A DNA stretch of 64,000 nt from Bacteroidota bacterium (lineage in GTDB: Bacteria; Bacteroidota; Bacteroidia; Bacteroidales; NBLH01). Position 1 is the stretch's first letter. Each line of letters begins with the position of its first letter. The DNA is taken from positions 1-64,000 of the forward strand of contig JANYKN010000033.1 in assembly GCA_025361565.1 (NCBI GenBank), given 5' to 3'. Below the pieces are notes generated by a model. It saw only the letters and a list, made by a program, of their open reading frames with translations. It was not told where the DNA came from and made no database searches. Shown in pieces: positions 2,633 through 21,227 of this stretch. Both the position numbers and the translations under genes were made by a program.

Positions 2633-2673
2633 TTGACTACCCCCTTTTTTTCACCTAAATTAAATTATAGTAT

Positions 2674-2964
2674 ATGAACTTAGGTAACACTATAAGCACA
2701 TTAAGGCAAAAACGTGGTCTTAAGCAATCTGATTTGGCTGAAAAGTGCCAAATTACACAAGCTTATTTGTCAAATATAGAACACAATAAAAAGGAGCCAA
2801 TTATTGCAATATTAAAGTTGATAAGTTTAGCGTTAGAAATTCCTTTACCTGTTTTATTTTTCCTATCAATGGACGAAGAGGATGTACCTGAAAATAAAAA
2901 ACAATTATTTTCATTTCTTTCGAATAATTTCAAGCCAATTCTAATAAATAATTTTGTTGAATGA
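2674..2964 (+). CDS. XRE/Cro-CI family HTH protein of the retron unit
   Basis: A 96-aa protein. Residues 3-60 form a classic Cro/CI helix-turn-helix (ISTLRQKRGLKQSDLAEK, then AYLSNIEHNKKEP), followed by a hydrophobic helix and a short tail. Its stop codon overlaps the RT start as ATGA (2961-2964), which implies translational coupling. Retron surveys describe a class whose partner protein is a small HTH protein; this order (RNA, small ORF, HTH, RT) suggests a member of that class. It could be the effector, a regulator of the unit, or both. Confidence 0.8.
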   Translation: MNLGNTISTLRQKRGLKQSDLAEKCQITQAYLSNIEHNKKEPIIAILKLISLALEIPLPVLFFLSMDEEDVPENKKQLFSFLSNNFKPILINNFVE

Positions 2965-3779: not shown

Positions 3780-3826
3780 GATTCTAATAAAATACGTTTT
3801 AAGGTATTATTTTCTATTCTTTCCAT

Positions 3827-3940
3827 TCAATTCCAACCCGTTATAATCCTATCCGTTTCCGATAAAGCCACAATAATTTTCTTATACTTCAGAATACCAT
3901 CAAATTCCAATTGCCATTCTTTTTTGTCATATAGCCATTT
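3827..3940 (-). pseudogene. Short decayed coding fragment
   Basis: On the minus strand about 37 codons read protein-like (LYDKKEWQLEFDGILKYKKI, ending ETDRIITGWN) before a stop, but a TAA lies immediately upstream and there is no start. It looks like the C-terminal end of a lost gene. Family unknown. Confidence 0.3.
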
Positions 3941-4267
3941 TTATAAGATTGGTAACATCCGATATCAAAACAAGGTATATAAATGAGGCTATAAAATGAT
4001 GTATCAAAGCCAGCTGTATCTTAACCTTTATTAAATTATTCTATAACAAAACATAGGTGATTTAGATAAATTACTGATAAAGAATTTGGAATACAATTTC
4101 CTTGACCATAGAGAAAACAAACAAAGCAACTTTTTACTATTAGTATAAATGTTTAGAATTAAAAAAGCAAGTTAGACTCAATAATCCACAAGCCTCTTCC
4201 CACCCCAAAACTTTTTTAGCATTAATCCTCTAAATTTCTTATTTTGCAAATTATTTCCAATTAGATA
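3941..4267. other. Intergenic DNA before the type I operon
   Basis: No gene is seen. An A/T-rich leader runs up to the hsdR ATG; a weak TTATTTTG at about 4240-4247 partly resembles a -7 element. Nothing else is supported. Confidence 0.4.
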
Positions 4268-6664
4268 ATGATTGACAAAAAATCCCTATCCGAGCGTGAT
4301 ATCTGCACAAAGTTTATAACCCCTGCGCTTGAAAAAGCAGGATGGAATAAACTTACTCAGTTTTTGGAAGAAGTTTCTTTTACCGATGGTAAAATTTATG
4401 TCCGTGGTAAGTTAACTGCCAGGGGTGAAAAGAAGCGGGCTGACTACATTTTATATTTTAAACCCAATATTCCAATCGCAATCATTGAAGCAAAAGACAA
4501 CAAACATTCTATTAAATCAGGGATTCAACAAGCTTTGGATTATGCCCGCATTCTGGATATTCCATGTGTTTTTAGCAGCAACGGCGATGGGTTTTTATTT
4601 CACGATCGCACGGCAACTGGCAATGATATCGAAACTGAATTAAGTATTGATAACTTTCCTTCACCTACGCAACTTTGGGAGAAATACAAAAAGTACAAAG
4701 GTATCAGCACACCAACAGAGGAAAAAATTGCTTCTCAGGATTTCTATTTTGACGGTAGTGGACGTAAACCAAGATATTATCAGCAGATAGCCATAAACAG
4801 AACAGTTGAAGCCATTGCAAAAGGACAAAATAGAATCCTTTTGGTTTTGGCAACTGGAACAGGAAAAACCTATACTGCATTTCAAATCATACATCGGCTA
4901 TGGAAAGCTGGTGCAAAAAAACGGATTCTTTTTTTAGCAGATCGAAATGCGCTGATTGACCAAACAAGACGGGGCGACTTCAAACATTTCAAAGATAAAA
5001 TGACGGTGGTAAAACACCGGGAGATTGATAAAAGCTATGAAATCTATCTGGCTTTGTATCAGGGTTTATCTGGTACTGATGAAGATGCCAATGTTTATAA
5101 GCAATTTACACCGGAGTTTTTTGATTTAATTGTAATTGATGAGTGTCATAGGGGTAGTGCAAAAGAAGACAGCGCCTGGCGCGAAATACTGACCTATTTC
5201 AAAAACGCTACACATATTGGTTTAACGGCAACTCCAAAAGAAACTAAAGAAACAAGTAATACAGAATATTTCGGAGATCCTGTTTATACGTATTCCCTAA
5301 AGCAAGGTATTAATGATGGTTTTCTGGCTCCTTACAGGGTTATAAGGGTTGCACTGAATGTTGATGCCGAAGGTTGGCGACCAGAACAGGGAAAAACAGA
5401 TAAAGAAGGTGATCTTGTTGAAGATCGGATATATAACCGAAAAGATTATGACAGGAATCTGGTAATTGATGAGCGAACAGAAACCGTAGCCAAAAAATTG
5501 ACTGAATTTTTAAATGGTTACGATCGTTTTGCAAAAACAATTGCTTTTTGCGTGGATATTGACCATGCCGAAAGAATGCGCACCAATTTATCTAAAGAAA
5601 ATGCCGATTTGGTTGCTCTAAACTACAAATATGTAATGCAAATCACAGGTGACAACGACGAAGGAAAACGGGAATTGGACAACTTTACCAATCCCGAAGA
5701 AAAGTATCCGGTAATTGCTACTACTTCCGAATTAATGACAACCGGAATTGACGCCCAAACATGCAAGGTAATTGTATTGGATGCAAATATCAATTCAATG
5801 ACCAAGTTCAAACAGATTATAGGACGCGGCACACGGATCAATGAAGAATTTGGGAAAATGTATTTTACCATTCTCGACTTTAGAAATGCCACGGATTTAT
5901 TTGCTGATAAAGATTTTGATGGAGACCCGATAAGAATAAAACCAGTAAGCCAGGATACTGATTTAAATGGTATTGTTGATGAAGAAGAAAACGACGAAAC
6001 TCCAATCATAGATGAAGTTACAGGTGATGAAATTGAAATGGTTAAACCTGAAATCAGGTATCCTGAAGATGAAAGCCCCCCTAAAGAATTAAGCGAATCC
6101 AAACCAAAAGTTTATGTTAATGGGGTTGATGTTTCAATTCTGGTAAGCAGGGAATTATATTTCGACCAGCACGGTAAACCAATTACTACCAGTTTAAAAG
6201 ACCACACCAAAGAAATCATAAAAGGTAAATATGCTTCGCTTGATGATTTCTTAAACAAGTGGAAAACAACTGATCGTAAAGATGCAATCATTGCAGAACT
6301 GCAGGAACAAGGCGTTTTAGTAGAAGCTTTATACGAAGCGGTGAATCAGGAAGTTGATTTGTTTGATTTAATATGCCACGTAGCTTACGACCAACCTCCA
6401 TTGACCCGGAAAGAAAGAGTAAACAACGTAAGAAAGCGAAACTATTTTACCAAATACGGCGAGCAGGCCAAAAATGTGTTGGAATCTTTATTGGATAAAT
6501 ATGCCGATGAAGGAATTACCAATATCGAAAGCATGGATGTTTTAAAAGTAAAACCATTGACTGATTTTGGTTCCCCAACTGAAATTATAAGTGAATTTGG
6601 TAGCAAAGAAAAATATTTACAAGCAGTAAAAGAGTTAGAAAACGAATTATATAAAACCGCATGA
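4268..6664 (+). CDS. hsdR: Type I restriction enzyme R subunit (HsdR, EcoEI-like)
   Basis: A 798-aa motor and nuclease subunit. The N-terminal PD-(D/E)XK core is visible as RADYILYF (D59) and IAIIEAK (E74, K76), followed by the QxxxY-like QQALDYA. The helicase follows: Walker A ATGTGKT (195-201), DECH box (291-294), TATP motif III (320-323) and an arginine motif GRGTRI in the second RecA domain. The C-terminal ~200 residues resemble the EcoEI-type HsdR C-terminal domain that docks on the methylase. It translocates DNA with ATP and cuts unmodified DNA when complexed with HsdM and HsdS. It is the first gene of a tightly packed operon running to 12822. Confidence 0.92.
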   Translation: MIDKKSLSERDICTKFITPALEKAGWNKLTQFLEEVSFTDGKIYVRGKLTARGEKKRADYILYFKPNIPIAIIEAKDNKHSIKSGIQQALDYARILDIPCVFSSNGDGFLFHDRTATGNDIETELSIDNFPSPTQLWEKYKKYKGISTPTEEKIASQDFYFDGSGRKPRYYQQIAINRTVEAIAKGQNRILLVLATGTGKTYTAFQIIHRLWKAGAKKRILFLADRNALIDQTRRGDFKHFKDKMTVVKHREIDKSYEIYLALYQGLSGTDEDANVYKQFTPEFFDLIVIDECHRGSAKEDSAWREILTYFKNATHIGLTATPKETKETSNTEYFGDPVYTYSLKQGINDGFLAPYRVIRVALNVDAEGWRPEQGKTDKEGDLVEDRIYNRKDYDRNLVIDERTETVAKKLTEFLNGYDRFAKTIAFCVDIDHAERMRTNLSKENADLVALNYKYVMQITGDNDEGKRELDNFTNPEEKYPVIATTSELMTTGIDAQTCKVIVLDANINSMTKFKQIIGRGTRINEEFGKMYFTILDFRNATDLFADKDFDGDPIRIKPVSQDTDLNGIVDEEENDETPIIDEVTGDEIEMVKPEIRYPEDESPPKELSESKPKVYVNGVDVSILVSRELYFDQHGKPITTSLKDHTKEIIKGKYASLDDFLNKWKTTDRKDAIIAELQEQGVLVEALYEAVNQEVDLFDLICHVAYDQPPLTRKERVNNVRKRNYFTKYGEQAKNVLESLLDKYADEGITNIESMDVLKVKPLTDFGSPTEIISEFGSKEKYLQAVKELENELYKTA

Positions 6665-7230
6665 TTTCTAAACAATATAATAACTCATTTTTAAAAAAAT
6701 CAGTAAATGATTTTTACGAAAAACAAATTGAAAATCTTAATACATTCAACTCATTGGTACTTGAAAATAAGGATTTTGAATTTAAAGAGTTTTCTTCTGA
6801 CAAGCCAATTGATTACACCAAATTTAATTTCAAAAAAGCACTATACTTTTTTGAATTGGATGAAAGTGAAGAAAAATGCGAAATCATTTGCAATAAAATC
6901 AAAGACCGGAAAAAGCTAAAAAAGAACGAATTAAAACTTCCAAAAGTCAATTTTGAGAATTTATCTGGGGAAAACAAAATACTTTATGTTGGAAAATCGC
7001 TTGGTCTATTTTCTGAGCGTTTGAAGCAACATTTAGGCGAAGGTTCCGAAAAAACCTATGCCTTACATTTAAATAAATGGAAGGATAACCTGGATTTGAA
7101 AGCAAAATTGAAACTTTATTATACTTCATTCGAAGGTATCATTAAAGATGATCAAAATGATTTACTGGAATTATTAGAATCTTCCTTGCATAATAAGTTA
7201 AAACCAATATTAGGTAGAACTGGCCATTAA
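6661..7230 (+). CDS. GIY-YIG-like protein embedded in the type I operon
   Basis: A 189-aa protein whose ATG overlaps the hsdR stop (ATGA, 6661-6664). A GIY-YIG fold is suggested by ALYFFEL (60-66, GIY strand), ILYVGKS (107-113, YIG strand), an Arg soon after (SERL, R120), and a Glu and Asn in LLESSLHNKLKP (E173, N178). A ~40-residue charged insertion separates the two strands, longer than in the canonical nuclease. Proteins of this kind may add nicking activity or be degenerate DNA binders. The nuclease reading is by motif only. Translational coupling implies a role with the restriction system. Confidence 0.6.
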   Translation: MISKQYNNSFLKKSVNDFYEKQIENLNTFNSLVLENKDFEFKEFSSDKPIDYTKFNFKKALYFFELDESEEKCEIICNKIKDRKKLKKNELKLPKVNFENLSGENKILYVGKSLGLFSERLKQHLGEGSEKTYALHLNKWKDNLDLKAKLKLYYTSFEGIIKDDQNDLLELLESSLHNKLKPILGRTGH

Positions 7231-7289
7231 ATAATCTATAAGAATAATTAAACTTTAAACTTTAAACTTCAAACTTTTTTCTTTTTAAA

Positions 7290-8726
7290 ATGAGCAACAT
7301 ATCAGGCATAATAAAAAGCATCCGCGACATCATGTGGCAGGACACCGGGCTAAACGGCGATGCACAAAGAGTAGAACAACTGGGCTGGATGCTTTTCCTT
7401 AAAATATTTTCGGACAAAGACAAAGAACTTGAGTTACTAGACGACAAATACAAATCGCCCATTCCGGATCAGTTTCATTGGGTAAAAGAAAAAGGAAATT
7501 GGGCTGGCGATGATGAAGGAATAACAGGTGATGCATTATTGGAGTTTGTTGATCGTCAATTATTCCCAGCCTTGCGAAATCTGGATTTAAGCACGGCCAA
7601 CCAACGCGCAGTTATTGTTCGTGAAGTTTTTGAAGGCAATAACAATTATATGAAAAGCGGCATCAACATACGCAAGGTATTGAACAAGCTCAACGAAATT
7701 GATTTCAATATTGCCAAAGACCGTCATGCTTTTGGCGAATTATACGAAACCATTCTGAAGGAACTGCAAAGTGCCGGTAAAAGTGGCGAGTTTTATACCC
7801 CACGTGCCATTACGCACTTTATAACCGATATGATTAATCCCAGACTGGGTGAAAAAATACTGGATCCTGCCTGTGGTACAGGTGGCTACTTAACCTGTGC
7901 CATTGAGCATTTAAAAAAACTGGCTAACAATGTGGATGAACGCAAAAGCATTGAACAAAACATCATTGGATGGGAATACAAGCCATTGCCTTATTTGTTG
8001 GCAACCACTAACTTAATTTTACACGATATTGAAATTCCAAATATTACTTTTCGCGATTCACTTGACCAACCATTGAGCAATTTTACCGAAAAGCACCGTG
8101 TAAATGTAATCCTTGCAAATCCTCCTTTTGGCGGCATTGTGGCTAACGGAAACGAAAGCAATTTTCCACAAACTTACCGGACAAAGGAAAGTGCCGATTT
8201 ATTCCTGATTTTAATGATTCACCTTTTAAAACAAGGCGGAAGGGCAGGAATTGTATTGCCCGATGGTTCATTAACTGGCGATGGTGTAAAACAAAGGGTA
8301 AGGCAAAAACTACTTGAAGATTGTAACCTGCATACCATTATTCGTTTGCCCAATTCTGTTTTTCAGCCTTATGCAACCGTAGCCACCAATTTGTTGTTTT
8401 TTGATAAAGGCACACCTACAAAAGAAGTTTGGTATTACGAGCACCGCCTGCCCGAAGGACAAAAAGCCTACAATAAAACAAGGCCCATCCAGGCCAAAGA
8501 ATTTGAACCCATTAAAAAATGGTGGAATAACAGACAAGAAAGCGAAATTTGCTGGAAAGTAAACATCAATACCATTATTGAACGAGGCTACGATTTAGAC
8601 ATTAAAAACCCAACCAAACAGGAAGAAGAACAAGAGCACAGCAGCACAGAACTAATGGAAATGCTAGATAAAAGTTTTTCGAAAAGCCACGATTTATTAA
8701 TGAAATTGAAGGAGGCAGTAAAATGA
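7290..8726 (+). CDS. hsdM: Type I DNA methyltransferase M subunit (HsdM)
   Basis: 478 aa. An N-terminal HsdM_N helical domain (about 1-150) precedes the N6-adenine methylase domain. The SAM-binding motif I is DPACGTGGY (192-200), preceded by GEFYTPRAIT, and the catalytic motif IV is NPPFGG (~277-282). It methylates adenines in the bipartite site chosen by HsdS and joins the restriction complex. It ends in ATGA overlap with the next gene (8723-8726). The 59-base gap upstream holds an A/T-rich leader, where translation reinitiates. Confidence 0.95.
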   Translation: MSNISGIIKSIRDIMWQDTGLNGDAQRVEQLGWMLFLKIFSDKDKELELLDDKYKSPIPDQFHWVKEKGNWAGDDEGITGDALLEFVDRQLFPALRNLDLSTANQRAVIVREVFEGNNNYMKSGINIRKVLNKLNEIDFNIAKDRHAFGELYETILKELQSAGKSGEFYTPRAITHFITDMINPRLGEKILDPACGTGGYLTCAIEHLKKLANNVDERKSIEQNIIGWEYKPLPYLLATTNLILHDIEIPNITFRDSLDQPLSNFTEKHRVNVILANPPFGGIVANGNESNFPQTYRTKESADLFLILMIHLLKQGGRAGIVLPDGSLTGDGVKQRVRQKLLEDCNLHTIIRLPNSVFQPYATVATNLLFFDKGTPTKEVWYYEHRLPEGQKAYNKTRPIQAKEFEPIKKWWNNRQESEICWKVNINTIIERGYDLDIKNPTKQEEEQEHSSTELMEMLDKSFSKSHDLLMKLKEAVK

Positions 8727-9817
8727 GCCGGGAACTTCAATTTTTAAATGTTATTGCTCTCATTAAACAGTCGAGGGCAAATGCTATAAAATCGGTGAAT
8801 GCTGAACTAATTAACCTTTATTGGAACATTGGCTCATATATAACTGTGCAATTGGCCAATGCCCAATGGGGCGAAAAAACAGTGGACGAACTTGCCGAAT
8901 TCATCAAAGCCAACCATCCGGAACTGAAAGGTTTTAATAGAAGAGGCTTGTACCGAATGAAGCAATTCTACGAAACCTATTCAAATTCATTATTTATGTC
9001 AGCGGCGTTGACACAAACCCAAAGTATTGATAATAAAAAAGATGCAATTGTGTCATTGGCAATGACACAATTTATTGAAAGCAATATTAGAGAAACTATT
9101 TTAACCAAAATTAGTTGGACAAACCATCTGACCATTTTTGGACGATGTAAATCGGACGAAGAAAGAGAATTCTATATACAGCTTTGTATAAAAGAGAACT
9201 ATACTGTAAAAGAACTCGAACGCCAAATAAATGCTTCATATTTTGAACGTTCTATGTTAAATAGTTCAATATTCCCTACAGTGTCGGGAATATTGCCTGA
9301 GAATTTTGATACAGTTTTTAAAGAAAATTATGTGTTTGAATTCCTGAATTTACCTGAACCTTATTCGGAAAAGGAATTGCAAAAAGGATTGATACAGAAC
9401 ATGAAAAAATTCTTACTCGAACTGGGCAAAGATTTTTTGTTTGTTGACGAAGAATACCGACTGCAAGTGGGCAACCGCGATTTTAAAGCCGATTTACTTT
9501 TTTATCACCGTAATTTGCAATGCCTGGTGGCTTTTGAGTTAAAAACAGAAGCCTTTGAACCCGAACATTTGGGTAAATTAAATTTTTACCTCGAAGCCCT
9601 CGACCGCGATGTGAAAAAACCGCACGAGAACCCCAGTATTGGTATATTGCTCTGCAAAGACAAAGATACCGAAGTGGTGGAATATGCCCTAAGCCGCCAG
9701 TTATCGCCCGCAATGGTAAGCCAGTATACACTGGCATTACCCGACAAAAAGCTATTACAAAACAAACTGCACGAATTGTTTGAAATGTGGGAAAACAGAA
9801 TGGAGGAGGAGAAATGA
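8723..9817 (+). CDS. DUF1016 / YhcG-type PD-(D/E)XK nuclease
   Basis: 364 aa. The N-terminal DUF1016 half carries the family pattern LINLYWNIGSYI, then GFNRRGLYRMKQFYETY and SWTNHLTIFGRCKSDEER. The C-terminal half is a PD-(D/E)XK fold: FKADLLFYHR (D ~257) and LVAFELKTEAF (E ~272, K ~274), then LNFYLEALDR. Family members are widespread beside type I R-M systems; their role is not established, with nuclease or Holliday-junction-type functions proposed. Start and stop overlap hsdM and hsdS by ATGA, so all are co-translated. Confidence 0.85.
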   Translation: MSRELQFLNVIALIKQSRANAIKSVNAELINLYWNIGSYITVQLANAQWGEKTVDELAEFIKANHPELKGFNRRGLYRMKQFYETYSNSLFMSAALTQTQSIDNKKDAIVSLAMTQFIESNIRETILTKISWTNHLTIFGRCKSDEEREFYIQLCIKENYTVKELERQINASYFERSMLNSSIFPTVSGILPENFDTVFKENYVFEFLNLPEPYSEKELQKGLIQNMKKFLLELGKDFLFVDEEYRLQVGNRDFKADLLFYHRNLQCLVAFELKTEAFEPEHLGKLNFYLEALDRDVKKPHENPSIGILLCKDKDTEVVEYALSRQLSPAMVSQYTLALPDKKLLQNKLHELFEMWENRMEEEK

Positions 9818-11160
9818 GTTGGAAGAAAGTAAAATTGGGAGAAATTTGCATAATTGAAAAAGGTACAACTGGTATTTTAAAAGCAATTCCTGGCGAATAT
9901 CCTATGGTTGTTACAGCGGAAGAAAGAAAATCACACAACGAATTTCAATTTGATGATGAAGCAGTAATTATTCCACTGGTTTCAGGAACTGGTCATGGAC
10001 ATGCAAGTATAAAAAGAATACATTTTCAAAAAGGTAAATTTGCTTTAGGATCAATTCTTTGCGCCGTAATTCCTAAAGATAAAACACAATTGAGTTCTGA
10101 ATATCTTTACCGGTATCTTGATTTAAATAAAGAAGATGAATTGGTTGCAAGAATGAAAGGCATGGCCAATGTTACATTGCCAATTAAAGAAATTGCCCAG
10201 ATAGAAATTCCATTACCAACATTAAAAGAACAAACTGAATTTGTAGAAAATTATAAGAAATTAGAGGCTAATAGCGATTTGCTATCCACCGAACTCACCC
10301 ACCAACTCACACTTGTAAAAAAACTCCGCCAGCAATTCCTGCAGGATGCCGTGCAGGGAAAATTAACCGCTGAGTTCCGCACTTTGCACCCCGAGCTTGT
10401 TGAGGGGCCAAACAGTGCCAGCGAATTACTTAAAAAAATAAAAGCAGAAAAAGCCCAACTCATAGCTGACAAAAAACTTAAAAAAGAAAAAGATCTGCCA
10501 CCCATTAAGCCAGAAGAAATTCCTTTTGAAATTCCTGAAGGTTGGGTTTGGTGCAGGTTGGGAGAGATTGTTACAATGTCGAGAGGCAGATTCTCTATAA
10601 GACCAAGAAATGATTTAAGCTGTTTTGGCGGGCAATACCCATTCATACAAATTGGTAGCTTAGATGAACAAGGTTCAATAATAACAGAAGCTCCACAAAC
10701 ATTAAATGAAAAAGGATATAAGGTTTCAAAGGAGTTTCCAGTTGGCACAATTGCAATAGCAATAGTTGGAGGCACAATAGGGAATTTAGGAGTGCTTGGA
10801 ATCCCAATGTGTTTCACTGATAGTATGGTTGGTATATTTCCATCAGATTGTCCAAATCAAAAGTTTATTCTGAACTTTCTCAGATTCGTTCAACCTGAAT
10901 TAAAAAAAGCTGCATACCAAATGTCCGGTCAACCAAATATTAAAATTCCAACTTTAACTGATTTATTAATTCCACTTCCCCCACTATCAGAACAACACCA
11001 AATCGTCCAAAAATTAGAACAACTGATGCAAACCTGCAATGAGCTTGAAGAAAGCATTAAACTAAGTGCATTGCTTAATGATAAATTATTGCAACAGGTT
11101 TTGAGGGAGGCTTTAAGTAATAAAGTAGATCAAAATAAATTGGCCAATATTACAAATTGA
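9814..11160 (+). CDS. hsdS: Type I specificity subunit (HsdS)
   Basis: 448 aa from ATG 9814, chosen because a purine-rich GGAGGAGGAG lies just before it and it overlaps the DUF1016 stop as ATGA. Two target recognition domains are each followed by a long helix. TRD1 covers about 1-150 and ends LKEQTEFVENYKKLE. TRD2 begins FEIPEGWVWCRLGE and ends with PLSEQHQIVQKLEQLM. The helices set the spacer of the bipartite site. The linker at about 10385-10407 encodes HPELVEG, a peptide often created by a short dispersed repeat. The recognised sequence cannot be read from the protein. Confidence 0.92.
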   Translation: MSWKKVKLGEICIIEKGTTGILKAIPGEYPMVVTAEERKSHNEFQFDDEAVIIPLVSGTGHGHASIKRIHFQKGKFALGSILCAVIPKDKTQLSSEYLYRYLDLNKEDELVARMKGMANVTLPIKEIAQIEIPLPTLKEQTEFVENYKKLEANSDLLSTELTHQLTLVKKLRQQFLQDAVQGKLTAEFRTLHPELVEGPNSASELLKKIKAEKAQLIADKKLKKEKDLPPIKPEEIPFEIPEGWVWCRLGEIVTMSRGRFSIRPRNDLSCFGGQYPFIQIGSLDEQGSIITEAPQTLNEKGYKVSKEFPVGTIAIAIVGGTIGNLGVLGIPMCFTDSMVGIFPSDCPNQKFILNFLRFVQPELKKAAYQMSGQPNIKIPTLTDLLIPLPPLSEQHQIVQKLEQLMQTCNELEESIKLSALLNDKLLQQVLREALSNKVDQNKLANITN

Positions 11161-11170
11161 AACCTATTGA

Positions 11171-12175
11171 ATGGTAGAGTTATATGATATAACCAAATGG
11201 AATGTTAAAGAGTGGATTAATACCACTGGTACAAGAGAAAAATGCTTTATTGAAAATCCGGTAGATTCAAAGCTTTATTTCTATAAGATGTCCATTGAAA
11301 AATATCCATCTGAATTTTGGTCCGAGATTATTGCCAGCAAAATTGGCAAAGAGCTAAAATTTGATATTGTGGATTATAATATTGCCATACATAAAAATAC
11401 CATCGGTTGTTTATGCGAATCTATGATTGACCAACAAACACAGGAATTGGATCATGGAATAAATATTATTAAAAATGCCTTTCCTGGCTTTGTTGTAACT
11501 GAACGACCCGAAATTTCTTTTCATCAGATAGAAAAAGCATTAGAAAAATACAGGGGTTATATTCAAAAATTTATTGATGTGATGGTTTTTGATGCACTAA
11601 TTGGTAATCAGGATAGACATTCAGAAAATTGGGCAATCATCCGCTCTTTAGATATTAATAACAAAGAATTTAATAAACAAAGACTACTTAAATACTTGAA
11701 AGGAATTTACAAAAAATTCGGTTTGAAACTTAAAAATGTACCATTTAAGAAATTTATTATCAGGCACATGGATGAATTATCTTTGGTTGATTATGAATTT
11801 TCACCAATATACGACAGCGGCAGCAGTTTAGGAAGAGAGATAACAGAAATATCAATCCCTGAATATTTATCAGATGAAAATAAAATGAAAAAATATATTA
11901 AAAACGGAAAATCTGATATTAGATGGGAAAATAAACGTGTAAAACATTTTGAACTTCTCAATTTTTTGAAAAAATCTTATCCTGAACAATTAATTAGTAC
12001 AGCACAAAAGGTAATTAATCAATATAACAGCGATAGAATGAAAGATTTAATTTTTAATATTGATAAAAAATTACCAGCAAATTTTGGAGAAAGTAGTTTA
12101 TCTTTGCCCAGAAAAGAATTGATATTTAAACTCATAGATTTAAGAATACAAACTTTAAAAGAATTAATTTCTTGA
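11171..12175 (+). CDS. HipA-like kinase domain protein
   Basis: 334 aa, ten bases after hsdS. The kinase core resembles HipA: DVMVFDALIGNQDRHSENW (136-154) supplies a catalytic Asp (D148) and metal-binding Asn (N153), and YDSGSSLGRE (about 213-222) resembles the second metal-binding Asp segment. There is no N-terminal HipA_N lid region; the next gene may supply it. HipA-type kinases phosphorylate Ser/Thr on targets such as GltX and can act as toxins. Its place at the end of the restriction operon suggests a guard or a toxin-like arm, which is inference. The stop overlaps the next gene's TTG start. Confidence 0.75.
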   Translation: MVELYDITKWNVKEWINTTGTREKCFIENPVDSKLYFYKMSIEKYPSEFWSEIIASKIGKELKFDIVDYNIAIHKNTIGCLCESMIDQQTQELDHGINIIKNAFPGFVVTERPEISFHQIEKALEKYRGYIQKFIDVMVFDALIGNQDRHSENWAIIRSLDINNKEFNKQRLLKYLKGIYKKFGLKLKNVPFKKFIIRHMDELSLVDYEFSPIYDSGSSLGREITEISIPEYLSDENKMKKYIKNGKSDIRWENKRVKHFELLNFLKKSYPEQLISTAQKVINQYNSDRMKDLIFNIDKKLPANFGESSLSLPRKELIFKLIDLRIQTLKELIS

Positions 12176-12822
12176 AAATCCGTAAAATATATTTAAGCTG
12201 GCGAAAAGGTCAGGGTAGCCGTCGGAAAATTGTTGGTTTGTTAAAACGAACAGCTTCAGATGGTATTACATTTAAATATAATGAAGAAGGAGTAATGGAA
12301 GCTCAAAAAGAAGGGTTCAAAGAATATCCGGGCTTTCCTTTAGATTTTCATAAAATATACGAAGAAAAGAACCTTGATGTTTTTGGTTTACGTTTAGCTT
12401 CGTTTGACAGAAAAGATAGTATTAAATTACGTAATTTCTGGGAAGCAGATAAAATTCAGGATAAATTTGATTTACTAGCTCTCACCCAGGGATTATTACC
12501 AACCGATAACTTTGAGTTTTTAGGCTTGTTTAATCCAGGTACTGATTTACAATTTGTTACCGATGTTGCAGGATTGAGTTACCTCCAATTGGAAAAAGAT
12601 ATTGTGAAAGTTGGCGATATTATCACCTACGAACAGGAATTCATGAAAGATGCTTATGAAGGGAAAGCGATAAAGCTCTATAAATCAAATACACCAATTG
12701 GATATATTAAAAATATCCACAATAATGCATTTATTAAATCGGGCAAGCAATTAAAGCTTAAAGTTAAAGCGATTGAACAAAATGGTATAATTAGCAAGAT
12801 ATTTGTTCTTGTAACTGGTTAG
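12172..12822 (+). CDS. HIRAN-domain protein, partner of the HipA-like kinase
   Basis: 216 aa, TTG start overlapping the kinase stop (TTGA). The N-terminal half (KIYLSWRKGQGSRRKIVGLL, then GITFKYNEEGV, EGFKEYPGFP, LTQGLLPTDNFEFL) resembles the N-terminal lid domain of HipA-like proteins. The C-terminal ~100 residues (AGLSYLQLEKD, then DAYEGKAIKLYKSNTPIGYIKNIHN) look like a HIRAN domain, which in HLTF-type proteins binds DNA 3' ends and damaged DNA. Split kinase and lid polypeptides recall HipBST-type systems. The HIRAN domain could sense DNA damage left by restriction. The pairing is seen; the mechanism is inferred. Confidence 0.65.
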   Translation: MKIRKIYLSWRKGQGSRRKIVGLLKRTASDGITFKYNEEGVMEAQKEGFKEYPGFPLDFHKIYEEKNLDVFGLRLASFDRKDSIKLRNFWEADKIQDKFDLLALTQGLLPTDNFEFLGLFNPGTDLQFVTDVAGLSYLQLEKDIVKVGDIITYEQEFMKDAYEGKAIKLYKSNTPIGYIKNIHNNAFIKSGKQLKLKVKAIEQNGIISKIFVLVTG

Positions 12823-13066: not shown

Positions 13067-14329
13067 ATGTCTGGACACGAAAATAAATACTTCAAAAATT
13101 ACAATTGTTGGATACAGGAAAATAAAATTCGTTTTGGGAACTTATCCAACCAGAGGGTAATCCCAGAATTTATAAATTCTATTAACCGCTTAATCTATAA
13201 ATTTGAACACAAGAAAATTATTTTGGATTTTTCTGAGGTCAAACAAATATACCCATTTCCTGTTGTTCCAGTATCTGCATACATTCAATATTTTAAAGAA
13301 AATAATGATATTGAATTTGAGTTTAGCAATATGCCTAAATATCTAAAAAACATAAACTTCGGAAATCCCAAGTTGCCATCAAAATCTTCAACAAACCGAT
13401 ATTCGAATATTCTTGATAAAATTTGGACTTTTAACGATGGTACAGAAGTAAATTTACTCGTAAACGGAATCAAAAATAGTATTCGTAAATCAATTGTTTG
13501 TGAAAAAGGCATTCTCGATGCAATAGATTGGGGTTTAAATGAAGTAATGGATAACGTAATTCAACATTCAGGTATCAATAAAGGTTTTGTAATGTCTCAG
13601 GTTCAAAAGTCAAGTAAAAATTTAAATGTTTGTATATTTGACTATGGTCATGGGATTTATAATACGTTGAAAAACACTCAATATAAACCCAAAAATGCAG
13701 CCGATGCAATTTCATTATGCGTTCAGGAAGGAGTAACACGTGATAAAAAAATAGGGCAGGGAAATGGTTTGTGGGGCCTTTATAATATGGTAACCCTCAA
13801 TGGAGGTCACCTAACAATCATTTCTGGCAAAGGTGGATTGAATTTTAATCAAAAGGATAAAGAAATATATTCATATAAAGATATTATTCTGCTTAATAGT
13901 AAAAATCAGGCAACTAATATAAATTTCCATTTAAATTTAGCTAAGAATATTTCAATTAAAGAAGCATTAAAGGGATATGAACTAACAGATTTATTCGTTG
14001 AAAGTTTAGAAAATGATTATGGTCAATATATTTATAAAATATCTGAAGCTGCATCTGGCACAGGAACACGTCAATCAGCGATTGCTATAAAAAATGAAAT
14101 TTTGAATATTCAGAAACAAACTCAAAAACCAATAGCGCTTGATTTTAGTAATATTGGAATTATTTCATCATCATTTGCAGACGAACTTATTGCAAAATTG
14201 ATAATTGACTTAGGCTATTATCAATTTCAAAATACTTTTAGGTTAATTAATATGAATCCTACAATACAATCAATTTTGCACCGTTCTATTGGTATGAGAT
14301 TTGCAGATACTTTTGTTAATAAAATTTAA
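13067..14329 (+). CDS. GHKL ATPase with STAS-like/DUF4325 C-terminal domain
   Basis: 420 aa, no signal peptide. The N-terminal ~110 residues look STAS-like (KKIILDFSEVKQIYPF). The middle is a histidine-kinase-type ATP fold: N box LNEVMDNVIQHSG (N158-H167), G1 DYGHGI (192-197), G2 GQGNGLWGLYNM (230-241). The C-terminus (about 320-405) matches DUF4325: IALDFSNIGIISSSFADEL. No His phosphoacceptor domain is present, so it is more like an anti-sigma or sensor ATPase than a kinase. It stands alone on the plus strand, convergent with the ubiquitin-like operon, and is bracketed by the two promoter-hairpin cassettes. Its role, perhaps a sensor or switch for that operon, is unknown. Confidence 0.75.
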   Translation: MSGHENKYFKNYNCWIQENKIRFGNLSNQRVIPEFINSINRLIYKFEHKKIILDFSEVKQIYPFPVVPVSAYIQYFKENNDIEFEFSNMPKYLKNINFGNPKLPSKSSTNRYSNILDKIWTFNDGTEVNLLVNGIKNSIRKSIVCEKGILDAIDWGLNEVMDNVIQHSGINKGFVMSQVQKSSKNLNVCIFDYGHGIYNTLKNTQYKPKNAADAISLCVQEGVTRDKKIGQGNGLWGLYNMVTLNGGHLTIISGKGGLNFNQKDKEIYSYKDIILLNSKNQATNINFHLNLAKNISIKEALKGYELTDLFVESLENDYGQYIYKISEAASGTGTRQSAIAIKNEILNIQKQTQKPIALDFSNIGIISSSFADELIAKLIIDLGYYQFQNTFRLINMNPTIQSILHRSIGMRFADTFVNKI

Positions 14330-14383: not shown

Positions 14384-14485
14384 TAGCTTTTCTTTGTCTC
14401 AAATAATAAACAATTATGCTTAATGCATATATTTGCAGTGGCAACATTATAACAAGGTTCTTATTTCGATAAGAACCTTTTTTTA
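14384..14485 (+). ncRNA. Promoter-hairpin cassette, copy B (candidate tiny RNA)
   Basis: Second copy of the 12861-12955 unit. TATATTTG lies at 14428-14435, followed by the same GCAG-GGCAACATT segment. A perfect 11-bp stem AAGGTTCTTAT/ATAAGAACCTT (14454-14464 with 14469-14479) is closed by a TTCG tetraloop and followed by seven T. The base changes between copies preserve the stem (G-U in A becomes A-U here). It follows the ATPase gene and overlaps the 3' end of the convergent DUF6527 gene, so it can serve at least as the ATPase gene's terminator. Confidence 0.5.
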
Positions 14486-14817
14486 TTCCCTTTTTTGAAT
14501 CTTCTTTTCGAATAATTCTCCCTTTCAAACCAGTTCTTGGCCATCCTGATTTTGCTATTAATAATCCAATAATGTGATCTACAAGCAAAATTCCAATTCC
14601 CAATGGAAGGATAAAGAGAGATAGTCTTTCCATCAAATGTCAGTTTCCAATCATTTGGCGCAATCGGCGTAACAACCTCATTGCCACAGCCACACACGCA
14701 TTTGTGTATAGCTGTGCAATATTCAAATGAGATATACAATATTCCATCTTCAAGTTTATCTGGGATAAACTCAACAAATTTGTGCTGTAAAATCATCATT
14801 TGCCAGGTGTGAATCAT
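14461..14817 (-). CDS. DUF6527 protein of the ubiquitin-like operon
   Basis: 118 aa from ATG 14817; in-frame ATGs at 14799 and 14796 are also possible and nearer the conserved part. The family core is clear: [20 protein letters not shown], then [31 protein letters not shown] and FACRSHYWI. The Cys/His set (HxCxCGCG ... CRSHYW) suggests metal binding and a role as a peptidase-like or zinc-ribbon partner. DUF6527 proteins are known to co-occur with multiubiquitin and ThiF genes. It overlaps the E1-like gene's 3' end by 47 bases. The last codons run into the hairpin of the opposite-strand terminator. Confidence 0.8.
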
Positions 14818-15958
14818 TAATTGAATACGAAGAATTATGTTCCTTAATTAAATCCTGATAAAATCCGCATAATTTTTTCCATTTGATAACTGCAAAAAGT
14901 GCATTTAATGCGTTTAAATCAGCTATTTGAATATTTGTACTATACTCATTATTAATATCATCACCACAGGATATTCGATTAAACAAATGATCATGTTTAT
15001 CTGAAGTTCCGGTAGTAACCCTTAAAGTTCCAATAAGGCTATTATCAACAATATTAACACCTAAGCCGACATCAAAGAATGGAATATTCATTTTTATAAG
15101 ATATTCAATGATGTTCCTTTTTACAGAATCCTTATCAATTGCAACAAATACATAGGTCATATTTCCCAATTCCTCAATATTTGCTTCATTGATATAATAA
15201 GGATGAGCAATCACATTTTTATGCATCTTTGAATAAATTTTCTTATAATATTCCGGTTTTGATTTTCTCATGTTCAATTCTTCAATTGTTGCAGCTCCTG
15301 GTGAACGAAAAGCATTATGCAAAAGGAATTCATCTCCATCATATAAATGGATTTCCAGAACAGGAGTTTTAGCAACAAAATCTAAAATATATGCACCGGT
15401 TCCACCTAGTCCAATGATTGCAATCTTTTGACCATTAAACTTTGAACTAATCAAATTAATGTTGGCCCGGCTGGAATTTGTATCCCAATAATTAAAAACA
15501 GAATTTGGACTTTCGTCATATATAACCTTGAAAGTTTTTTCTGTAACGCTTTTATCCAACGATTTTGCGGGTGCTGAAATTATTCCGGAATACATAGTCA
15601 CTTTGTGATAATAATCATCATAACCATTTGCTGGTTTATTCGAAAAAGAATGATTTATCGTAATTCCATCAAATAGTATTTGATTTGGGCTTGTATGTTT
15701 TATTTGAGCAATGATACTGCCATCATTATTACAAGGATGTTCACCCATGAAATTTATGACATGGGTATTCGGTTTGGCAGTTTGTTTATTATTATATAAT
15801 GTAAGCTCACTTACCAATATACCAAATTTTATTTCTTTCGAATGGTTTACGTAAGGGATATGGTGGATAAGCAAATATCCACCGTTTACCTCAATTTCAA
15901 AACCTTCGTCCCTGAGTCGCTTCAAATCAGGACTATGATCTATTAGTTGCTGTGACAT
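14771..15958 (-). CDS. E2/E1-like ThiF-family ubiquitin-activating protein
   Basis: 395 aa. The C-terminal ThiF/E1 adenylation domain shows the nucleotide-binding loop [12 protein letters not shown] (182-193), the acidic strand end LYDGDEF (D207, D209) and the conserved Arg in HNAFRSPGA (R218). Near the end, [20 protein letters not shown] (C331) holds a possible catalytic Cys. The first ~130 residues form a separate domain with [16 protein letters not shown] (C76), resembling the E2-like domain fused to ThiF in bacterial polyubiquitin-type operons. It would adenylate the C-terminus of the multiubiquitin protein and pass it on. It overlaps the upstream gene by 26 bases. Confidence 0.82.
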
Positions 15959-16406
15959 TGAAAATCATTTTATTTTTAACAAATACCTCAACTCCTTTAA
16001 CCATAGAACCTTCATGGTTTTGTCCTGGTCCATGTGAATACGAAACAGTATAAACTGTTGTTTCATCTTCAACATAATTTTCAAAAGCAAGCTTTACAAC
16101 TTGTTCATAAGAAATTTTCCTTTCGGTCCATTTTTTTTGCCTTCCATTTACAATGATTTCAACTGAATGTTCATCATGTTTTTTGGAAAAGAAATGTTCA
16201 ATACCAGGTCGGGCTAAATCTATCCTGGTATCATCAAATATTGGTTCATCTTCCCATGGTCGTTTAATAGACAAAAAGATTTTCTCATCTTTAGGTATAC
16301 TGCCAAGATTTCTGACTTCAGCACCTGTAATGTATTGATGCTCCCATTTGTAATTTTCACCATTTATTATTAATGGTAATTCATTGTTATTTTTCAAATT
16401 AATCAT
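15933..16406 (-). CDS. Multiubiquitin-domain protein (tandem ubiquitin-like)
   Basis: 157 aa made of two beta-grasp-like units. The first (about 10-75) reads LPLIINGENYKWEHQYITG ... GIEHFF. The second (about 80-157) reads VEIIVNGRQKKWTERKISYE, VVKLAFENY, YTVSYSHGPGQNHEGSM and [14 protein letters not shown], which is the signature of the bacterial multiubiquitin family. The C-terminus is NVTATNRS with no Gly-Gly, so conjugation, if any, uses a different tail or needs processing. It is the first gene of a three-gene minus-strand operon with the E1/E2-like and DUF6527 genes. Confidence 0.88.
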   Translation of the reverse strand: MINLKNNNELPLIINGENYKWEHQYITGAEVRNLGSIPKDEKIFLSIKRPWEDEPIFDDTRIDLARPGIEHFFSKKHDEHSVEIIVNGRQKKWTERKISYEQVVKLAFENYVEDETTVYTVSYSHGPGQNHEGSMVKGVEVFVKNKMIFNVTATNRS

Positions 16407-16654: not shown

Positions 16655-16687
16655 ACTAAAGCCTGATTGTCAATCAATCTGGCTTTA
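16655..16687 (-). terminator. Rho-independent terminator after the 57-aa gene
   Basis: Arms AAAGCC-GATTG (16658-16669) and CAATC-GGCTTT (16675-16686) pair with a single T-T mismatch around a 5-nt loop. On the minus strand the hairpin is followed by CTTTTT. It lies immediately after the stop codon of the small gene, which it terminates. Confidence 0.7.
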
Positions 16688-16858
16688 TTTTTCCTTAGTT
16701 ACGCCTTTTAAAGGCTTTTCATCCGCTTTTTGGTCAATAAATTGGCCTGTCTCTGTATCTCTCTTAACCCAATGTTTAGTTTTTGGATTAAAAGTTTGAG
16801 ACCTTTGTTTTACAGCGCCATTCCTATGACCATCATTTGTTTTACCGTTTTTAGCCAT
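16685..16858 (-). CDS. 57-aa basic protein, Bacteroidota-type small ORF
   Basis: ATG at 16858 to TAA at 16685-16687 encodes 57 residues beginning MAKNGKTNDGHRNGAVK. It continues with a TFNPKTKHWVKRDTETGQFI segment and ends PFKGVTKEK. It is polar and basic, with a repeated hint of a beta-hairpin motif (KHWVKRDTETGQF). Similar short proteins are common in this phylum without known function. A clean terminator follows. It lies between the ubiquitin-like operon and the XRE/ImmA pair. Confidence 0.6.
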   Translation of the reverse strand: MAKNGKTNDGHRNGAVKQRSQTFNPKTKHWVKRDTETGQFIDQKADEKPLKGVTKEK

Positions 16859-16965
16859 CTTTAAAATATTAAAATTGTTTTGAAAAATATTAATGATGCA
16901 AAATTAAATAATAAATCTAAATTTATCAAGCAATAATAAAAATAGTTATCAATAAATTAGCAATA

Positions 16966-16996
16966 TTTGATATATTTAGATTTAAGTGTATATTTG
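16966..16996 (+). promoter_or_regulatory. Promoter of the XRE/ImmA pair
   Basis: TTTG at 16966-16969 and TATATTTG at 16989-16996 are 19 bases apart. This places transcription start near 17002 and rules out an upstream ATG at 16967 as the start of the XRE gene. Confidence 0.75.
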
Positions 16997-17011
16997 TATA
17001 AAAAAACCGCC

Positions 17012-17356
17012 ATGAAATCATTAGGATTTACACTTAAAGAAGCACGAGCGTTAATTTCTCTCACACTTAGGCAAGTTGAGGAAGCAACTGGAATTTCCAA
17101 TGCATATTTGAGTCAATTGGAGAATGATAAAATAAAAAAGCCTTCGGCAAATGTGTTATATAAATTAGCATCAATATACAAAATAGAGTTAAATACGCTC
17201 TTAAGTGCAGCAGGAATAATACAGAAATCTGAAAATTCGGAAAAACCGAATTCATCGGAATGGGGAAAAAGAATTGCTTTTTACACTGATGAATTATCTG
17301 ACGAACAAAAAGATAAAATATTAGAATATATTGAATTTTTAAAACATAAAAATTAA
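17012..17356 (+). CDS. XRE-family transcriptional regulator
   Basis: 114 aa from ATG 17012, the first start after the promoter. The HTH is FTLKEARALISLTLRQVEEATG then AYLSQLENDKIKKPSANVLYKLA. A Ser/Asn/Pro linker and a C-terminal amphipathic helix (DELSDEQKDKILEYIEFL) follow. It is two bases from the downstream ImmA/IrrE-type peptidase gene. In known pairs the peptidase cleaves or inactivates the XRE repressor to switch on an element or stress response. Confidence 0.85.
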   Translation: MKSLGFTLKEARALISLTLRQVEEATGISNAYLSQLENDKIKKPSANVLYKLASIYKIELNTLLSAAGIIQKSENSEKPNSSEWGKRIAFYTDELSDEQKDKILEYIEFLKHKN

Positions 17357-17358
17357 TA

Positions 17359-18255
17359 ATGTTCGATCTACCTTCCAAATCCGATATTGAGAAAATTTCG
17401 TTAGATATTCTTAAGCAAAGTAAAGCCCTTGACGTATTTCCGACTCCGGTTGATAAAATTATCAATTATGCGAATCTTCATTTAAAAGGTGATATTGATC
17501 TATCAAAAGTTGACCATTCTTTTCTATCTAAGTTTTCCGATGCGGTAGCTAGTAAGTTTCTTGAAGCTATGGGCCTAGTGAGAGGGATTATAGATAGAAA
17601 GGAAAAAACAATATATTTGGATTTAAGTCAAAATCTATCTCGACAAAACTTTGTTAAACTTCATGAAGTCGGACATGATGTATTTCCTTGGCAAAGGGGG
17701 ACATTTGAACACATAGACGATGATAATACTTTAAACCCTTACACAAATGAAGAATTTGAAGCAGAGGCAAGTTATTTTGCATCACTCACTCTTTTTCAAC
17801 AAGATCGATTTGAAAATGAAATGAAAAAGCTAGAGTTAGGTATGAAGGCTCCAATGTATTTGGCTAAACATTTTGGTGCCTCCAATCATGCTGCATTGCG
17901 AAGATATGTTGAATGTTCTAAAAATAGATGTGCATTGTTGGTCTTAGAAAAAATTTCGATGTATAATGGTTCTGCATTTTGTAAAAAAAGAGATTTCTTT
18001 TCATCAAACAAATTTCAGGAAACATTCGGTACAATAGAATTTCCTGTCGAGTTTGATTCAACTTGGCAGTTTGCCCAAGATTATTTTTTCAAAAAAAGAT
18101 ATCATGAAAAAGGGAGTATCTCCTTAATTACAGAAAATGGAGAGTCAGATTTTAAATATCATTTTTTTAATAATACATTTAACGCTTTTATTTTTCTTTT
18201 CCCACTTGGTGAAACTAATAAAACAAGGACAAAAATTATTATTTCAAAGAGTTGA
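17359..18255 (+). CDS. ImmA/IrrE-family metallopeptidase
   Basis: 298 aa. The zinc site is NFVKLHEVGHDVFPW (HEVGH at 102-106), with a downstream Glu in EEFEAEASYFAS (about 133-143) as the likely third ligand. The C-terminal ~120 residues are a separate alpha/beta segment. The gene follows the XRE regulator with two bases between them, so the two are co-translated and probably interact. Such pairs regulate integrative elements or act as toxin-antitoxin-like modules; which applies here is not shown. Confidence 0.85.
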   Translation: MFDLPSKSDIEKISLDILKQSKALDVFPTPVDKIINYANLHLKGDIDLSKVDHSFLSKFSDAVASKFLEAMGLVRGIIDRKEKTIYLDLSQNLSRQNFVKLHEVGHDVFPWQRGTFEHIDDDNTLNPYTNEEFEAEASYFASLTLFQQDRFENEMKKLELGMKAPMYLAKHFGASNHAALRRYVECSKNRCALLVLEKISMYNGSAFCKKRDFFSSNKFQETFGTIEFPVEFDSTWQFAQDYFFKKRYHEKGSISLITENGESDFKYHFFNNTFNAFIFLFPLGETNKTRTKIIISKS

Positions 18256-19110: not shown

Positions 19111-19836
19111 ATGAAAACATCTGATTATATAGCATTTACTATTGATAGACTTCCTAAAGGATATGTTTTCACCTATGCTGATTTTACTACTGAGGTGAAT
19201 AAGGAGGAGGCTGTAATAAAAGCCCTTAATCGTATGACAGAGTCGGGCAAAATAGCAAAGTTGGCCAAAGGCAAATATTACAAACCAGAGAACACGCCTT
19301 TTGGTAAGCTACAACCAAACCAGGCACAAGTTGTAAAAGATTTACTTGAAGATAATGGGAAAATAATAGGCTATCTTACAGGATATAGTATTTATAATCA
19401 ACTTGGTCTTACTACACAATTGAGCAATACCATACAAATAGGCAAAAATGAAATTAGGCCTTCCTTTAAACGGGAACGGTATACCATTTCATTCATTAAA
19501 CAAAAAAACACCATTACTAAGGAGAACATTCCATTATTACAGCTCCTGGATGCCATTCGATACATAAAAAGAATTACTGATAGAAAAATAGAATTTTCCT
19601 GTAAACGATTATTGATCATAATTCAAAATTTAACCAATAAGGATAAAAGTACACTGGTTCGTTTGGGATTAAAGTATCCACCGGCCACAAAGGCTTTATT
19701 AGGTGCCCTTTTGGATGAATTGAAAGAGAATTTGTTTACAGAACCGCTTCAAAAGTCATTAAACCCAATTACAAAATATAAATTGGCAGGTGTAAATAAA
19801 GTATTTGCTTCAGCCGGAAAATGGAATATCATATGA
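19111..19836 (+). CDS. AbiEi-type antitoxin / DUF6088 protein
   Basis: 241 aa. An N-terminal winged helix (GYVFTYADFTTEVNKEEAVIKALNRM, then GKIAKLAKGKYYKPE) is followed by the AbiEi-like antitoxin domain (GYLTGYSIYNQLGLTTQLSN). In type IV AbiE systems this protein represses its promoter and counters the nucleotidyltransferase toxin without direct binding. A palindromic operator lies directly upstream. The stop overlaps the toxin gene. Confidence 0.8.
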   Translation: MKTSDYIAFTIDRLPKGYVFTYADFTTEVNKEEAVIKALNRMTESGKIAKLAKGKYYKPENTPFGKLQPNQAQVVKDLLEDNGKIIGYLTGYSIYNQLGLTTQLSNTIQIGKNEIRPSFKRERYTISFIKQKNTITKENIPLLQLLDAIRYIKRITDRKIEFSCKRLLIIIQNLTNKDKSTLVRLGLKYPPATKALLGALLDELKENLFTEPLQKSLNPITKYKLAGVNKVFASAGKWNII

Positions 19837-20813
19837 ACTTACATTTTAACAAACAACTTTTCAGACAGGCAGTACAGTTTACTTCTGATCAAATGAAAAT
19901 ACTACCAGTTTATATCGAAAAAGACTATTGGGTAAGCTTTACATTGCATACAATTTTTCATAACGATATAGGAAATGACACAATTTTCAAAGGAGGTACA
20001 GCACTATCAAAGTGCTACAATCTAATAGAACGGTTTTCAGAAGATATTGATTTGGTTGTATTGCGGCGCGAAGGTGAATCGAATAATAAACTCACTACTA
20101 AAATCAGAAAAATAAGTGAAATAGTTAATGAAGTATTACCTGAAGTAAATATTGAAGGACTAACAAATAAAATGGGAATGAATCGTAAAACTGTACACTC
20201 CTACAATAAAGAATTTCAGGGAGATTATGGACAGGTTCGCGATGCAATAGTAGTCGAAGCTACCTGGCTTGGTTATCATGAGCCTTATACCACAAAAAGA
20301 ATAAGTTCATTCATTGGAAATATGATGGTTAATAATGGGCAGACTTCAATTGCTGAGCAAAATGGACTGTTGCCGTTCGAAATAAGAGTTTTAGAACCAA
20401 GCCGGACAATTTGTGAAAAAATAATGAGCCTTGTGAGATTTTCATATGGTGAAAACGCAATAGATGTCTTAAATAATAAAGTCAGGCATACCTATGATTT
20501 GCATCAACTATTGCAACAAAAAGAGTTTTTGGATTTTTTCAATTCAGTTTCATTTGAGAAGATGCTTTTGAAAGTGGCAAATGATGATGTATTAAGTTAT
20601 AAAAGCAATAATCGTTGGCTCGAAAACCATCCTGTAGATGCATTGATTTTTAAAGAATTAGAAACCGTTTGGAACAAACTAAAGCCAACTTATACTGGAG
20701 ATTTTAAAAAATTAGTTTATGGGAAATTACCAAACGAGCAAGATGTTTTCACTACATTAAAAAAGATAAAAGATAGATTAACAAGTGTAGTATGGACTAT
20801 TAAAATCGAATAA
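19833..20813 (+). CDS. AbiEii-type nucleotidyltransferase toxin
   Basis: 326 aa from ATG 19833, chosen because it overlaps the antitoxin stop as ATGA; an ATG at 19821 is in frame but less likely. The DNA polymerase beta-type motif is TIFKGGTALSKCYNLIERFSEDIDLVV, with GGT...S, then Arg and the SEDIDL acidic pair. Downstream PFEIRVLEPSRTICEKIMSL is typical of the AbiEii/AbiGii family, which modifies tRNA or other targets to stop growth during phage infection. Confidence 0.87.
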   Translation: MNLHFNKQLFRQAVQFTSDQMKILPVYIEKDYWVSFTLHTIFHNDIGNDTIFKGGTALSKCYNLIERFSEDIDLVVLRREGESNNKLTTKIRKISEIVNEVLPEVNIEGLTNKMGMNRKTVHSYNKEFQGDYGQVRDAIVVEATWLGYHEPYTTKRISSFIGNMMVNNGQTSIAEQNGLLPFEIRVLEPSRTICEKIMSLVRFSYGENAIDVLNNKVRHTYDLHQLLQQKEFLDFFNSVSFEKMLLKVANDDVLSYKSNNRWLENHPVDALIFKELETVWNKLKPTYTGDFKKLVYGKLPNEQDVFTTLKKIKDRLTSVVWTIKIE

Positions 20814-20900: not shown

Positions 20901-21227
20901 ATGATTGAAGATACCCTGAAAAGTCAAATCGAAATATTCAAATCTGTTTTCAAAGGCAGGGAAGATGTTTTTGCTATTCGTTGGGAAAAAGGAAATAAAA
21001 GTGGCTATATGCCAGTCTATCTATATGATGTTTATCGGTATCGCATACATAAAATGAAAGGTGGAACCCTTCAAAATTTTACAGAAAAAACTTACTTACC
21101 ATATTCTGAAGAACAAATTGCCAAACATCTCAGAGGCCAACAATTGATTGGTATTTACCCATTATTAAAGGATAACACTTCATGGTTTATTGCAGCTGAC
21201 TTCGATAAAAATGGTTGGGAATCATGA
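20901..21227 (+). pseudogene. Truncated TOTE-system primase-domain gene
   Basis: 108 residues match the start of the archaeo-eukaryotic primase domain of TOTE conflict systems: SVFKGREDVFAIRWEKGNKS, GYMPVYLYDVYRYR, YLPYSEEQIAKHLRG and GIYPLLKDNTSWFIAADFD. In the full protein this leads into the rest of the primase, then helicase and nuclease domains. Here a TGA at 21225-21227 ends it right after the first catalytic strand (ADFD), and nothing downstream continues it. The remaining ~1000 residues are missing, so it is a remnant left by deletion. Confidence 0.75.

Follow-up and report, generated by a model that had tools for sequence, protein, structure and literature searches.

Ubiquitin-type conjugation is usually described as a relay in which the carboxylate of a Gly is passed to a Cys thioester and then to Lys. 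Among prokaryotic relatives, the operons termed type 6e are outlined by Iyer et al. (2006; PMC1779556) as combining a polyubiquitin-like (polyUbl) protein, an inactive E2/RWD-like domain, a JAB-E1 fusion, and a metal-binding protein Y; according to their Table 1 (row 6e, note b), JAB is replaced in some type 6e E1 proteins by a distinct domain, X. The JAB type is represented by the Bub operon of Citrobacter, with PDB entries 9EA4, 9EA5, 9EA8, 9EAE, and 9EAV (Ye et al., 2026 and Gong et al., 2025, both as cited in PMC13373217). Of 544 Bub operons, 219 adjoin CapW or CapH+CapP, which are DNA-damage controlled regulators (PMC13373217). A JAB-type Bub operon was located here on a Citrobacter plasmid (L039). 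In it, BubCD consists of JAB and ThiF domains, BubB is a Prok-E2_E domain fused to BubA, and the third gene encodes a DUF6527 protein. The invariant H-x-H...D pattern of this JAB domain includes D104, known from the published mutant.

The locus compared with these systems lies in the window, the whole 64-kb stretch of Bacteroidota DNA that was analysed (Table 1). The original prediction of three overlapping minus-strand genes was borne out, with ORFs at the expected places and domains recognized by Pfam. Within the fusion protein, PF20590 (DUF6791) covers residues 10–160 (E 1.3e-57) and PF00899 (ThiF) residues 173–298 (E 1.5e-8); the protein is also a member of NCBIfam NF004805 (PRK06153), scoring 603.7 bits against a cut-off of 352. 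The DUF6527 gene more likely starts at 14796 than at the upstream ATG at 14817 (the earlier ORF being 14461–14817), because its homologues begin at the equivalent Met. The sequence motifs previously listed are all there: H74-P75-C76 and C331 in the fusion protein, C33-V-C35-G-C37-G...C72-R-S-H75-Y-W in the DUF6527 protein (numbered from the 14796 start), and TATNRS before the stop of the Ubl. All 35 homologous operons sampled (35/35) have these three genes, and their order does not differ; with the low dN/dS ratios, this places the trio far beyond chance. Relative to the closest relative (L019, whose fusion protein is 91% identical to the window's), dN/dS is ~0.11 for the Ubl, ~0.17 for the fusion protein, and ~0.14 for the DUF6527 protein, and so all three genes are, judging from these ratios, under purifying selection and maintained. 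The fusion is single-copy in the window's genome. The operon should be regarded as a real, conserved gene set of a known, lightly studied kind, from which unusual chemistry is to be expected.

Table 1. Features of the operon and its surroundings (window coordinates).
Feature	Position	Strand	Remarks
Double ubiquitin-like (Ubl) protein, 157 aa, C-terminus VTATNRS	15933..16406	-	PF14452 (Multi_ubiq, beta-grasp) x2, E 1.7e-27
DUF6791-ThiF fusion protein, 395 aa; C-terminal E1-like adenylation domain	14771..15958	-	PF20590 + PF00899
DUF6527 protein (BubE-like), 111 aa	14461..14796	-	PF20137, E 7.9e-25
Overlap of Ubl gene end and fusion gene start, 26 nt	15933..15958	-	exactly 26 nt in 31/35 operons, five phyla
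Codon of Ubl C-terminal Ser157	15936..15938	-	Ser in 35/35 operon Ubls
Codon of DUF6791 Cys76	15731..15733	-	Cys in 32/36; H or F in four alphaproteobacterial copies
Codon of Cys331	14966..14968	-	Cys in the window sequence only, among 36
Codon of Tyr339, candidate acceptor, E1 crossover region	14942..14944	-	Tyr in 35/36 columns
Terminator-like hairpin at operon end, between convergent genes	14454..14479	.	11-pair stem, then T run (+ strand)
57-aa basic accessory protein (MAKNGKTNDGHRNGAVK...), upstream of Ubl	16685..16858	-	no Pfam family
Inverted-repeat arm, 18 nt (TAAATCTAAATTTATCAA), candidate operator upstream of HTH gene	16912..16929	+	
Second arm of 18-nt inverted repeat	16967..16984	-	94% complementary, 37 nt apart
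CapH-like HTH regulator, divergent from operon	17012..17356	+	PF12844, E 8.6e-12; layout as CapH+CapP
CapP-like M78 (IrrE/ImmA-type) metallopeptidase, HEVGH	17359..18255	+	PF06114, E 3.1e-8
PADLOC candidate PDC-M03	11171-12822		
DUF6088/AbiEii toxin pair	19111-20813		
TOTE primase fragment	20901-21227		

The description of the locus as a prokaryotic polyubiquitin-like operon also holds, since it fits the domain X variant of type 6e (Iyer et al., 2006) and is related to Bub. As that variant is outlined there, the likeness lies in a polyUbl, an E1 with a non-JAB N-terminal domain, and a predicted metal-binding protein Y; the signature listed for protein Y is C-x3-C-x(35-38)-H-x2-C, while the window's DUF6527 protein has C-x3-C-x34-C-x2-H. 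Set against this outline, domain X would be DUF6791, and the operon is, on sequence grounds, a type 6e operon of the domain X-E1 variant, related to Bub operons. With JAB-type Bub it shares a multi-Ubl protein, a BubD-family E1, a DUF6527 third gene, the gene order, and the presence of CapH/CapP or other Cap regulators upstream, and both DUF6527 proteins have the C-x3-C...C-x2-H and PS motifs. Neither a JAB domain nor Prok-E2_E (BubB, PF14462) was detected in the trio by Pfam, however; DUF6791 takes the JAB position N-terminal to the E1, and the tail ends in ...TNRS where that of Bub is Gly-bearing. Bil operons (BilABCD) likewise have a double-Ubl modifier and an E1 (window Ubl vs BilA 8u38, E 1.6e-5), but also separate E2 and JAB-family DUB genes, of which the window's operon has none. 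No characterization of the DUF6791 class was found in the literature; Ye et al. (2026) and Gong et al. (2025) may already cover parts of it.

The operon probably encodes a reduced, Bub-like module for Ubl conjugation. The established part of this picture comprises the gene content and its conservation, the homology between the E1 domain and BubD, the conserved tail, and the layout of the regulators. Conserved residues suggest how the module might work. The ThiF/E1 domain would bind ATP and adenylate the C-terminal carboxylate of the Ubl, that of the encoded Ser; no processing to a Gly would be needed, in keeping with the lack of a JAB protease. The Ubl would then form an ester with Tyr339, in the crossover loop of the E1, or move to Cys76, or both; the E1 would employ no cysteine of its own, and DUF6791 would take the part of the absent JAB and BubB domains. 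Finally, the Ubl would be transferred to a cellular or phage target. The zinc-type DUF6527 protein could act as an accessory, either a target adaptor or a deconjugating hydrolase. By homology, the divergent CapH-like repressor probably keeps transcription down, to be released by the CapP-like protease on DNA damage. That this Ubl family is activated through its encoded C-terminal Ser, with tyrosine-ester transfer and a new transfer domain, DUF6791, fused to the E1, is a more tentative suggestion, possible but with the balance against it. For DUF6791-type operons, no conjugate, adenylate, or ester is reported in the literature found. If terminal Ser and Tyr ester proved correct, ubiquitin-type conjugation would have a second chemistry, distributed across five phyla. 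With just three genes, the pathway is compact enough to be reconstituted in full in vitro. Even an ordinary outcome would leave Bub-like operons sorted into two classes, those with JAB and a Gly-bearing tail and those with DUF6791 and a tail ending in Ser.

Homologues of the Ubl range from ~80 to 250 aa, corresponding, as judged by length, to one to three domains. The lack of a Gly-Gly at the tail had been noted, and the encoded terminal Ser turns out to be invariant (Table 1). Its codon is TCA, TCT, or TCG. Codon 8 of the overlapping E1 gene is made up of the last two bases of this codon and the first base of the Ubl stop, and accordingly reads H, L, or R; TCC, which would make it Pro, is unused. 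Since E1 residue 8 drifts and Ser157 does not, selection appears to act on the tail of the Ubl. The possibility that the terminal Ser is a by-product of the gene overlap was rejected, given that the third base of its codon varies, with changes in E1 residue 8, and that the four operons with a different overlap have Ubls ending in Ser as well. The sole Ubl sequence outside the Ser rule is a second, unlinked copy in L025, which ends in Ala. This orphan gene (L025:7522–7758, minus strand; tail ...TNNA) adjoins the operon there. The BubA tails of JAB-type operons bear a Gly near the end (TTEG, NNG, or NPG), and Gly229, from an NNG tail, is the final residue of the crystallised BubA(155–229). From these sequences, it seems that a Gly-bearing tail goes with JAB and a Ser tail with DUF6791. 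The closest solved relative of the window's Ubl is the ZDHYS365 multi-ubiquitin domain protein (PDB 9cd2; profile E 6.2e-38), which ends in TQTDKS but carries additional sequence at the N-terminus, where a third Ubl is weakly matched; the operon of this protein was absent from the collections searched.

In the E1 domain, the GG[TS]G loop, D207, D209, R218, K234, and D275 are invariant among 36 homologues, and N215 is present in 32 of them. Its profile matches that of BubD from JAB-type Bub over 233 columns (hhalign, E 9.3e-21). The AlphaFold model of the fusion protein (pLDDT 80.5, pTM 0.62) has Citrobacter BubCD, including the complex with BubA, as its best PDB fold match (Foldseek, E 2.3e-12), followed by PaaA and then by MccB structures. 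An alternative reading is that the E1 does not conjugate the Ubl to proteins but yields a stable product, a Ubl-nucleotide or a Ubl with a modified tail, much as MccB acts on the microcin C7 peptide. The place of MccB just behind BubCD and PaaA among the matches to the predicted fold, the non-Gly tail, and the lack of a conserved E1 cysteine would all agree with such a product. The closest homologues by fold and by profile are nevertheless Bub E1 domains, and protein conjugation is established, as far as the sources drawn on describe them, in further Ubl systems of bacteria, Bil and CBASS among them; an MccB-like product is considered very unlikely.

Cys331 had been put forward as the catalytic cysteine. 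This was not upheld: at the same position the other homologues (36 aligned) have F, S, M, L, and other residues, and across these 36 no conserved catalytic Cys of the classical E1 kind was found among the window's E1-domain cysteines. The leading candidate for an acceptor, on conservation, is a tyrosine. The one apparent replacement of Tyr339 (L024) reflects a shifted alignment. All eight sequences of the JAB-type E1 family have an invariant Tyr (Tyr370 of BubCD), and PDB entry 9EAV carries Y370F among its mutations. The pairing of Tyr339 with Tyr370 was made by hhalign in a larger comparison, while gap placement by MAFFT leaves the two unpaired.

In DUF6791, the HPC motif originally described needs some adjustment: the three residues are present, but H74 is variable, and the conserved unit is H66-x5-G-x2-P-C76. 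Among the 36 homologues, H66, G72, P75, S106, and Y123 are invariant, and Cys76 is the sole conserved cysteine of the fusion protein. The copies without it (L034–L037) are deep-branching and have kept the rest of the operon; with His or Phe in its place in such a subclade, Cys76 cannot be essential in all of these proteins. DUF6791 and ThiF are encoded by separate genes in two operons, so the former appears to work as a module. Together, its position and conserved residues point to DUF6791 as a functional domain.

The same residues could be taken to indicate a thioester relay, with E1 Cys331 and Cys76 of an E2-like DUF6791 passing the Ubl to a lysine. Invariant H66 lies ten residues before Cys76, the same spacing as between the HPN-His and the Cys of eukaryotic E2 enzymes, and the predicted secondary structure runs in the order helix, four strands, and Cys loop; the retention of Cys76 in 32 of 36 copies and the existence of separate DUF6791 and ThiF genes would also suit a relay. 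Against this, Cys331 is unique to the window's copy, and DUF6791 had no match to E2 proteins in searches of Pfam, of PDB profiles, with Foldseek, or of profile against profile, the last of these being powerless as a test, since E2 families also failed to match each other. In that last test, the DUF6791 profile was compared with BubB, Prok-E2_A, Prok-E2_B, and JAB and gave nothing, as did the control comparisons between E2 families. The relay is on the whole doubtful. A different assignment would make DUF6791 a replacement for JAB in function, a Cys76/His66 hydrolase for removing or remodelling the Ubl, leaving conjugation to the DUF6527 protein and the E1. It does sit at exactly the N-terminal JAB position of BubCD, with His66 in all 36 copies and Cys76 in most (32/36), but no sequence similarity to any peptidase was found, and with the Ubl tail already at the end of its gene there is no precursor to cut; this assignment is judged improbable, less so than an MccB-like product.

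In the DUF6527 protein, C33, C35, C37, C72, S64, and S74 are found in 36 of 37 homologous rows and H75 in all 37; C33, C37, C72, H75, W50, P63, and S64 are shared with the BubE proteins of JAB-type operons. The protein likely has a zinc site, and a hydrolase role is possible. The AlphaFold model (pLDDT 75.8) had no significant match in the PDB.

Beside the operon promoter is a divergent copy of a CapH+CapP-type pair, an HTH protein and an HExxH M78 peptidase (16967–18255). The HTH ORF is open from a TTG at 16967, but the ATG at 17012 is its likely start. The peptidase matches the PADLOC capP model with partial coverage (E 3.3e-18, residues 79–199). An M78 peptidase is also divergently upstream in 12 further operons, about a third of the relatives; other regulators in this position are a WYL protein in two operons and a CapS-like protein in two. 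Exact TAAATCTAAATWTATCAA sites occur at only two places in the 64-kb window, the two arms of the inverted repeat (Table 1). Homologues of the 57-aa protein are found directly upstream of the Ubl gene in L035, L081, and L082, but also on 68 plasmid records, so it is not operon-specific.

The window as a whole is a defence island, with type I restriction-modification genes for HsdR, HsdM, and HsdS and a YhcG nuclease at 4268–11160 in addition to the systems in Table 1. The link to defence that had been drawn for the operon is sound insofar as it sits among defence genes, but was overstated, the link being one of genomic context. No demonstration of anti-phage activity for Bub operons was found in the literature. 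In one relative (L021), a gene for a 654-aa antiphage-type dCTP deaminase (positions 2443–4407; PADLOC dCTPase, E 2.9e-121) forms part of the operon, with the DUF6791-ThiF gene on one side and the DUF6527 gene on the other and its ends overlapping both, which counts in favour of a defence role.

Two other genes in the window may be mentioned. A short reverse transcriptase (PF00078, 272 aa) is encoded on the plus strand at 2961–3779, upstream of the type I restriction genes. A STAS/GHKL/DUF4325 protein, also on the plus strand (13067–14329) and convergent with the operon, matches the PADLOC DrmA model. It was considered as a CapK and rejected, having only weak similarity (pairwise E 1e-4), a convergent orientation, and no HTH that could be found.

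The 35 sampled operons with the full trio come from at least five phyla: Bacteroidota, Pseudomonadota, Cyanobacteriota, Bacillota, and Actinomycetota. Fourteen of 395 Bacteroidota genomes carry the fusion protein, every copy between Ubl and DUF6527 genes. DUF6527 in these 395 genomes occurs mostly in DUF6791-type operons; four instances are in operons of the JAB-E1 type and two in phage-like settings. A scan of genome contigs with a single-sequence query gave only three loci. Matches were found in 115 plasmid records, from all five phyla, where the genes usually bear the annotations multiubiquitin, ThiF, and DUF6527; the operon itself is therefore known and annotated. Searches for homologues in the phage record collection and in E. 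coli genomes gave no match.

Several further loci deserve a mention. On an IMG/VR contig (L024:2064–12362), a DUF6791-type operon is flanked by genes for a DnaB-like helicase and for the large subunit of a terminase, which suggests that the operon is carried by a phage. DUF6527-like proteins are encoded in phage structural or lysis regions at L060:1405–1710 and L070:1003–1827, away from any Ubl operon. In L031 (5140–7050), the DUF6527 gene is apparently split by an IS256-family insertion. Finally, the window's own genome encodes, at G000:C188:11148–11447 (locus L092), a Prok-E2_B domain protein (PF14461), of the family of CBASS-type E2-E1 proteins.
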